A DNA stretch of 24,032 nt from a virus: positions 1 to 24,032 of IMG/VR virus record IMGVR_UViG_3300025286_001447. One strand, written 5' to 3'. The notes below the pieces were generated by a model. It searched no databases. It was not told the origin of the DNA and saw only the letters and a program-made list of their open reading frames with translations. Of this stretch, positions 1-365 are shown one piece after another (within the stretch, counting starts at the first letter, position 1; every line of letters begins with the position of its first letter). A program made the translations under genes and the position numbers.

Positions 1-63
1 GGCTTGGGGGTCTTATTATAAGATTATTGATACCCATGCCAGAATTTTACGTGTTCTAGGCCT

Positions 64-106
64 CTTGTACAGATCTTGTACATATCGTGTACACATGTAT
101 ACACAT
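64..106 (+). repeat. Tandem 11-bp repeats, core TGTACA
   Basis: Three consecutive 11-mers begin at 64, 75 and 86 (CTTGTACAGAT, CTTGTACATAT, CGTGTACACAT). They are followed by a degenerate 10-mer GTATACACAT at 97-106, which recurs at 141-150. The 11-bp period is close to one helical turn, so a bound protein would face the same side of the DNA. This is typical of iterons or cooperative operators (inference). Confidence 0.75.
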
Positions 107-126
107 TGCTTATTTCGTAGCTGATA

Positions 127-140
127 CATGTAATTACATG
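127..140. repeat. Perfect 14-bp palindrome CATGTAATTACATG
   Basis: The 14 bases equal their own reverse complement. The half-site CATGTA is the same word found throughout the leader, so this is likely a dimer-binding site of the same system (inference). Confidence 0.65.
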
Positions 141-158
141 GTATACACATGTTTTTCT

Positions 159-200
159 AGAGGTGTGACGGAGCCCGTAAGGTTAGCGAGTTACGCCTCT
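159..200 (+). other. Potential stem-loop element in the leader
   Basis: AGAGGTGT (159-166) can pair with ACGCCTCT (193-200) over 8 bp with one G-U. Inside it, ACGG (168-171) pairs with CCGT (175-178) around a 3-base loop. An alternative stem CGTAA (176-180) / TTACG (191-195) would compete with both. The element lies about 275 bases upstream of the predicted promoter at 474, so if transcribed it must come from another promoter. No known riboswitch or tRNA is recognised. Confidence 0.35.
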
Positions 201-216
201 CGTGTACTTCTTAGGA

Positions 217-228
217 ACATGTACATGT
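217..228. repeat. Perfect 12-bp palindrome ACATGTACATGT
   Basis: Self-complementary 12-mer built from overlapping ACATGT and GTAC words. It is repeated 24 bp downstream as the 10-bp palindrome at 241-250. Confidence 0.65.
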
Positions 229-240
229 ATTGTTTATGGT

Positions 241-250
241 CATGTACATG
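241..250. repeat. Perfect 10-bp palindrome CATGTACATG
   Basis: Second copy of the palindrome core at 217-228, spaced 24 bp (about two helical turns) from the first. A further 8-bp palindrome, GTCATGAC, follows at 257-264. Confidence 0.6.
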
Positions 251-332
251 TTTAGGGTCATGACTATACTGGTCGATACACGTCACTCCCTCTTATGGGT
301 CGCTCCATGTATCTCTCATGTATTTATAGTAT

Positions 333-365
333 ATGTACTGTTCATGTACTGTTCATGTATTGTTA
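333..365 (+). repeat. Tandem 11-bp repeats ATGTACTGTTC
   Basis: Three head-to-tail 11-mers begin at 333, 344 and 355. The first two are identical and the third is ATGTATTGTTA. They have the same 11-bp period and GTAC core as the array at 64-96 but different flanking bases, so this is a second array facing the first. Confidence 0.75.

Follow-up and report, generated by a model that had tools for sequence, protein, structure and literature searches.

A palindromic word cluster before the terminase genes of uncultured phages lies in a hairpin-rich leader that resembles a structured RNA or a hairpin region more than a series of protein sites

Introduction

Several described phage elements can be set beside a non-coding leader that precedes terminase genes. 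The phi29 pRNA is a packaging RNA in which self-complementary loops are possible, and which works with an ATPase and without a terminase small subunit (TerS) of the type considered here. Phage cos and pac sites are single-copy, conserved sites that adjoin the terminase genes. The putL and putR RNAs of phage HK022 are cis-acting antiterminators located downstream of the early promoters (PMC9378689), and the ornate RNAs ROOL and GOLLD are long, elaborately folded phage non-coding RNAs whose functions are largely unknown (PMC12286853). Repeated short words are the hallmark of iteron origins and of cluster A stoperator arrays (PMC6550527, PMC9283540).

The DNA analysed here (the window) represents an entire IMG/VR contig, 24,032 bases in length, whose first 535 bases (1-535) constitute the leader. 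The TGTACA and CATGTA words of this leader had been read in an initial annotation as an operator cluster, a replication origin or a pac/cos region. The cluster is part of a hairpin-rich leader that lies between a conserved bipartite motif and the promoter of the HTH, terS and terL genes, at the junction of leftward and rightward genes in uncultured, mostly deep-sea phages. The special and conserved junction implied by the earlier reading stands, as does a possible origin or pac/cos role, while the regular row of protein sites is unsupported; the region rather resembles a new structured viral RNA or a hairpin region. Computational comparison of the relatives documents the motif, an excess of hairpins, words restricted to clades, covariation and strand asymmetry in a middle hairpin, and the promoter.

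Repeats and palindromes in the leader

Two repeat arrays frame the word cluster:

63-93, no strand assigned: 11-bp triple array with unit TCTTGTACAGA (TRF: period 11, 2.8 copies; word counts)
333-364, no strand assigned: 11-bp triple array with unit ATGTACTGTTC (TRF: period 11, 2.9 copies)

TRF thus recovers both of the separate arrays that had been placed at 64-96 and 333-365, and the three perfect palindromes reported earlier (127-140, 217-228 and 241-250) are present as well. These palindromes represent 3 of the 8 perfect palindromes of at least 10 bp in the contig, and on their own three in the leader are unexceptional (shuffle mean 0.66, maximum 5). The count of 12 GTACs in 1-535 is also correct, amounting to 22.4/kb against 3.7/kb in the rest of the contig, and the GTAC/CATGTA density of the leader is reached nowhere else along the whole 24 kb. 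Specifically, 21 words fall within 60-365 and 20 in the densest 306-base segments, against 5 in the best segment away from the leader. The 12 GTACs include four outside 60-365, and the separate conserved promoter at 464-502 accounts for two of these. Dinucleotide shuffles of the leader never gave counts of GTAC, CATGTA+TACATG, ACATGT or TGTACA as high as those observed; for CATGTA+TACATG, 13 occurrences compare with a shuffle mean of 1.1 and a maximum of 5 (2000 shuffles). The words are non-random, as had been proposed, and cluster directly before the HTH gene and terS, at a junction that is itself special and conserved.

Relatives, neighbouring genes and host

Relatives (given below as L numbers) were collected with the terminase large subunit (TerL) of the window, which yielded 69 viral loci, and with a TerL alignment, which yielded 80, partly on the same contigs. 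Many of them share sample-series numbers, presumably reflecting deep-ocean sampling. Among cultured phages, the best TerL match (tblastn) reaches about 28% identity and the leader DNA has no match (blastn), and the annotated phage records held no similar leader. TerL relatives in cellular genomes show 41-53% identity, with 13 of the 14 loci in Chloroflexota MAGs and one labelled Bryobacterales; because these relatives are mostly found there, a Chloroflexota host is plausible.

Upstream of the motif genes mostly run leftward, while the HTH, terS and terL genes run rightward. Among the leftward genes by the junction are ArdC-like anti-restriction genes (L032:507-1421 and L048:912-1844, - strand), and the upstream genes scanned otherwise comprise an AAA ATPase (L023), a GP88 family protein (L161, L049) and unknowns. 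In one relative, L032:423-494 (- strand) matches the Type II hammerhead ribozyme with 47 bits (Rfam gathering score 37, E=1.7e-6), about 2 kb upstream of the bipartite motif.

A conserved bipartite motif at the 5′ end

TerL relatives in IMG/VR resolve the leader into three parts, namely the bipartite motif, a hairpin-rich stretch and the promoter. The motif extends over about 74 bp and reads GGGGGGYATGKCTTRG-N22-RRTACCCRTGMCAGAAWTTTT, followed by a short gap and then roughly TAAAGGCC. The window begins inside it, with about 12 bases including a G-run missing, and the element is thus 5′-truncated:

1-62, + strand: 3′ part of the bipartite motif (CTTG 3-6, N22 7-28, GATACCCATGCCAGAATTTT 29-48), supported by spacer matches, PWM scores and copy count

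Over the fetched loci the spacer measures 22 bases in 68 matches and 23 in one. PWM scores range from 25 to 82 in 111 loci, against about -23 to -38 in 14 cellular control loci, and the scan found the motif absent from the Chloroflexota loci with related TerL. Every record carries one copy (0 for the reversed-pattern control). Nearly all relatives whose sequence reaches far enough upstream have the motif next to terS or terL, whether or not CATGTA words are present, and it stays beside one of them even where terS is upstream. The latter arrangement occurs in L072, L087, L101, L106 and L112, in which the motif lies between terS and terL and the terS stop TAG falls inside the CTTAG of the motif, unlike in most relatives, where terS comes after the leader.

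A spacer of fixed length and free sequence is characteristic of a DNA site with two points of protein contact. The motif (1-62), which the initial annotation had left unnamed, is the strongest candidate for recognition by a protein, and its role would be that of a pac/cos site, an origin or a late promoter. Like cos/pac sites, it is single-copy, near the terminase genes and conserved in relatives. The density of contig ends rises around the motif, yet these ends are scattered rather than at one base, and contigs such as L009, L026, L052, L069 and L083 span it; as a sign of a physical terminus the ends are suggestive only.

Other readings of the motif were tried and set aside. An RNA stem (YATGK with CCRTG) had, by eye, too many mismatches as well as the constant 22-base spacer, and the motif was treated as DNA; a sigma-70 promoter was rejected because no consistent -10 is present, and N22 is GT-rich in L078/L082. 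PF00940, sought as a phage-specific RNA polymerase that might read the motif, had no match in 7 partial relatives nor in the control genomes, making this negative uninformative.

The behaviour of the motif bears on an explanation of the whole leader at the DNA level, in which double-stranded or cruciform hairpins would accompany the motif at a replication origin or packaging start. A single-copy motif that keeps its place beside terS or terL even with terS upstream, and whose N22 spacer is fixed in length and free in sequence as in a protein-DNA site, would fit such an explanation, as would the upstream genes, mostly leftward and ArdC-like ones included, which rightward packaging, were it to start at the motif, would deliver to the cell first. 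On the same grounds the motif may be suggested to have a pac/cos role, since anti-restriction genes on its left side would be the first to enter the host. The scatter of contig ends, with contigs spanning the motif and no terminus at a single base, speaks against this explanation, which is a possible but doubtful one; the strands of the hairpins, considered below, bear on it too.

Promoter and HTH protein

The 3′ end of the leader and the genes that follow contain these features:

464-502, + strand: promoter-like element GGTAC-N5-TTGACA-N13-GCGGTACGTT (TTGACA 474-479, N17 to TACGTT 497-502), in 12 distinct versions
536-742, + strand: 68-aa KorA-like HTH protein (family profile against PDB KORA-domain chains, E=6.6e-8)
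726-1208, + strand: terminase small subunit (phrog_4044, E=1.2e-6)
1177-2541, + strand: terminase large subunit (phrog_2, E=2.6e-20)

The spacer of the promoter-like element is exactly 13 in all 12 distinct versions. Against Pfam, the HTH protein stays below the cut-off for both KORA and HTH_24. KorA represses promoters, its own among them, by way of palindromic operators, and binding of the TGTACA/CATGTA words by the 68-aa protein had been considered. This is unsupported, as the core of the recognition helix (S/T-R-Q-R-V-G) is almost invariant, irrespective of whether a relative has CATGTA words, while the words turn over; an operator of this protein is improbable for the same reason. The HTH protein probably does not read CATGTA and, since its helix hardly changes while the words do, would be expected to act at the 464-502 promoter instead.

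The hairpin-rich stretch across relatives

Between motif and promoter lies a hypervariable, hairpin-rich non-coding stretch (about 63-440 in the window), with three hairpin features:

88-152, + strand: 5′ hairpin domain of TGTACA/CATGTA/GTATAC words, including the palindrome 127-140 (inverted pair 91-102/141-152; MFE fold)
159-200, + strand: middle hairpin of type A, AGAGGTGTGAC-GGA-[hairpin]-GA-GTTACGCCTCT, arms 159-169/190-200 (covariance model hit, covariation, strand folds)
215-253, + strand: 3′ hairpin with arms AACATGTACATG (216-227) and CATGTACATGTT (241-252), including the palindromes 217-228 and 241-250 (arms 100% complementary, z=-4.24)

Across 47 distinct leaders, 74 long stems were counted against 0-8 in dinucleotide shuffles, and stem density is 2.66/kb in leaders against 0.27/kb in the terL/portal region. 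The whole leader of the window folds with z=-4.08, and its words, which like those of the relatives are mostly hairpin arms, have a mean pairing probability of 0.84, compared with 0.56 for other bases, self-complementary words pairing in any fold. Rfam covariance models gave nothing credible in the leaders of the window and 15 relatives, and a tRNA/tmRNA search found none.

CATGTA words occur mainly in the terL clade of the window (11 of 12 rows, with two more scattered elsewhere), and other clades have other palindromic words (CTTAAG, GTGTAATTACAC, TTTCATTGAAA and TAACATGTTA). On the terL tree the words show high turnover, with gain and loss. Such turnover, as well as the frequent contig breaks around the junction, could be produced by neutral or selfish palindromic repeats piling up in a fast-changing intergenic region, an account made quite improbable by the compensatory changes and the middle hairpin that recur in otherwise unalignable leaders.

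Word spacing varies both between and within relatives (6, 11, 15, 17, 20, 24, 40, 77 ... bp), and the spacers of the arms change together. The one-helical-turn spacing from which cooperative protein binding had been deduced is therefore unsupported. An iteron-type origin was rejected because repeat length and helical phasing are inconstant in the same way and because no replication initiator is adjacent, the neighbours being the KorA-like HTH protein, TerS and TerL, and the scanned upstream genes ArdC, an AAA ATPase, GP88 and unknowns. More broadly, the words might constitute an operator array bound by a dimeric repressor that changes its specificity from clade to clade, as in mycobacteriophage stoperators and immunity operators; the palindromic and clade-specific words, the two 11-bp arrays and operator-like arrays in other clades (e.g. 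four copies of ATTTCATTGAAAT in L172) are consistent with this. It is nevertheless an unlikely explanation, given that word spacing is unconserved, that the HTH recognition helix is constant across clades with different words, that arm spacers co-vary and that no integrase was found in 7 partial relatives. The four copies in L172 (about 825-905) lie directly after the motif, ~21-25 bp apart, and are more operator-like than the words of the window.

The 3′ hairpin, which comes after the middle hairpin, holds CATGTA words in its arms, and hairpins occupy the matching place in L006, L017, L019, L022 and L032. Between the close relatives L032 and L022, two pairs differ on both sides (CAACATG/CATGTTG to CCACATG/CATGTGG, and GATT/AATC to GATC/GATC). 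In the L072/L101 group the leaders are short, and the middle hairpin is missing. L019, L020 and L021 contain an insertion between leader and promoter (about 480-790 in L019) that is absent from L023 and appears, by eye, gene-like on the minus strand. The leaders of L163 and L172 share a strong hairpin whose core reads C-run/TAAA/G-run (CCCCCCCTAAAGGGGGG) and whose flanking pairs differ between the two.

The middle hairpin

The middle hairpin recurs over leaders that are otherwise unalignable, in two permuted forms. Type A has the consensus GGTGTRAY-GA-[hairpin]-GA-GTTACGCC, plus an outer stem that varies while remaining complementary, and is found in the window, L006, L015, L017, L022 and L032. 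Type B has the strands in reverse order, GAGTTACGCMC-[hairpin]-GGGTGTRACGA, and is found in L019, L023, L026/L104, L040, L131, L144, L146 and L150. For type A, 92.9% of cells are paired and 7 pairs have changed on both sides; none of 500 shuffles matches the paired percentage or the covariation score, and slid controls are 37-50% paired. Covariation in type B is weak, its sequences being too invariant to show much. A covariance model built without L015 places the hairpin correctly in L015 (E=2.4e-6), where the outer stem differs in sequence and is still complementary; both covariance models find few sequences beyond their own building set.

In the window this hairpin folds with -20.3 kcal/mol on the + strand against -10.5 on the - strand, and the + strand fold is the more stable in 13 of 13 related (not independent) sequences, by a mean of 9.2 kcal/mol. 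G-U pairs and an RA/GA-type internal loop are, by eye, kept in both types, and together with the 13/13 strand stability they are signs of a + strand RNA. This strand bias, with conserved G-U pairs and RA/GA mismatches, is unlike a cruciform and argues against an explanation at the DNA level. Such an explanation is favoured by the lack of strand bias in the stems overall: counts of G-T (52) and A-C (28) over all stems are as composition predicts, the z-scores of whole leaders tend, if they differ at all, to be lower on the - strand, and stems other than the middle hairpin show no strand preference. The CATGTA arms could therefore act as DNA inverted repeats, and the missing strand preference of these other stems is the main weakness of a reading in which the entire leader is RNA.

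A structured RNA beside the terminase genes

The best explanation, to which a probability of about 0.5 is given, is that the leader may be a structured RNA beside a packaging or early/late-junction element. More specifically, the leader would be transcribed on the + strand and fold into a structured RNA whose functional core would be the middle hairpin, with the GUUACGCC/GGUGURAC helix and RA/GA internal loop in two permuted forms, and the CATGTA words would serve as interchangeable, self-complementary building blocks of the long arms. Such an RNA would most likely act in cis on the packaging/structural transcript, like an antiterminator or attenuator, with the bipartite motif as a putative DNA target of a protein, serving as pac/cos site, origin or late promoter. 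A bolder proposal, and a long shot, is that an undescribed family of phage structured RNAs beside the terminase, together with a bipartite packaging motif, serves DNA packaging or its timing, with a permutable GUUACGCC/GGUGURAC helix as core and arms that each clade would build anew from a self-complementary word.

If right, this would (i) give abundant uncultured ocean phages both a family of structured RNAs and a bipartite site that is conserved, and (ii) imply that a clade-specific palindromic word can mimic an operator array while its actual role is in hairpin arms. With its fixed N22, the motif offers a handle for mapping packaging starts, origins or late promoters from existing reads.

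Comparison with known systems

The HK022 put RNAs resemble the proposed element as cis RNAs in a phage leader, with a putative action on downstream transcription; the window leader is longer and lies before the packaging operon, and antitermination is here putative. Like ROOL and GOLLD, it would be a long folded non-coding RNA of phages, yet it has no Rfam match to them, lies outside a tRNA island and is poorly conserved overall. The phi29 pRNA is likewise a phage RNA tied to packaging in which self-complementary loops are possible, but differs in that the window leader has no Rfam match and that the TerS type of the window is absent from the pRNA system. Iterons and stoperators share with the leader their repeated, clade-specific short words; in the window, however, the words are hairpin arms, of no constant iteron length or phasing and with no adjoining initiator gene. 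Finally, the bipartite motif, in sequence unlike any element found and known here from sequence rather than from a mapped terminus, resembles cos/pac sites in being single-copy, conserved and adjoining the terminase genes.
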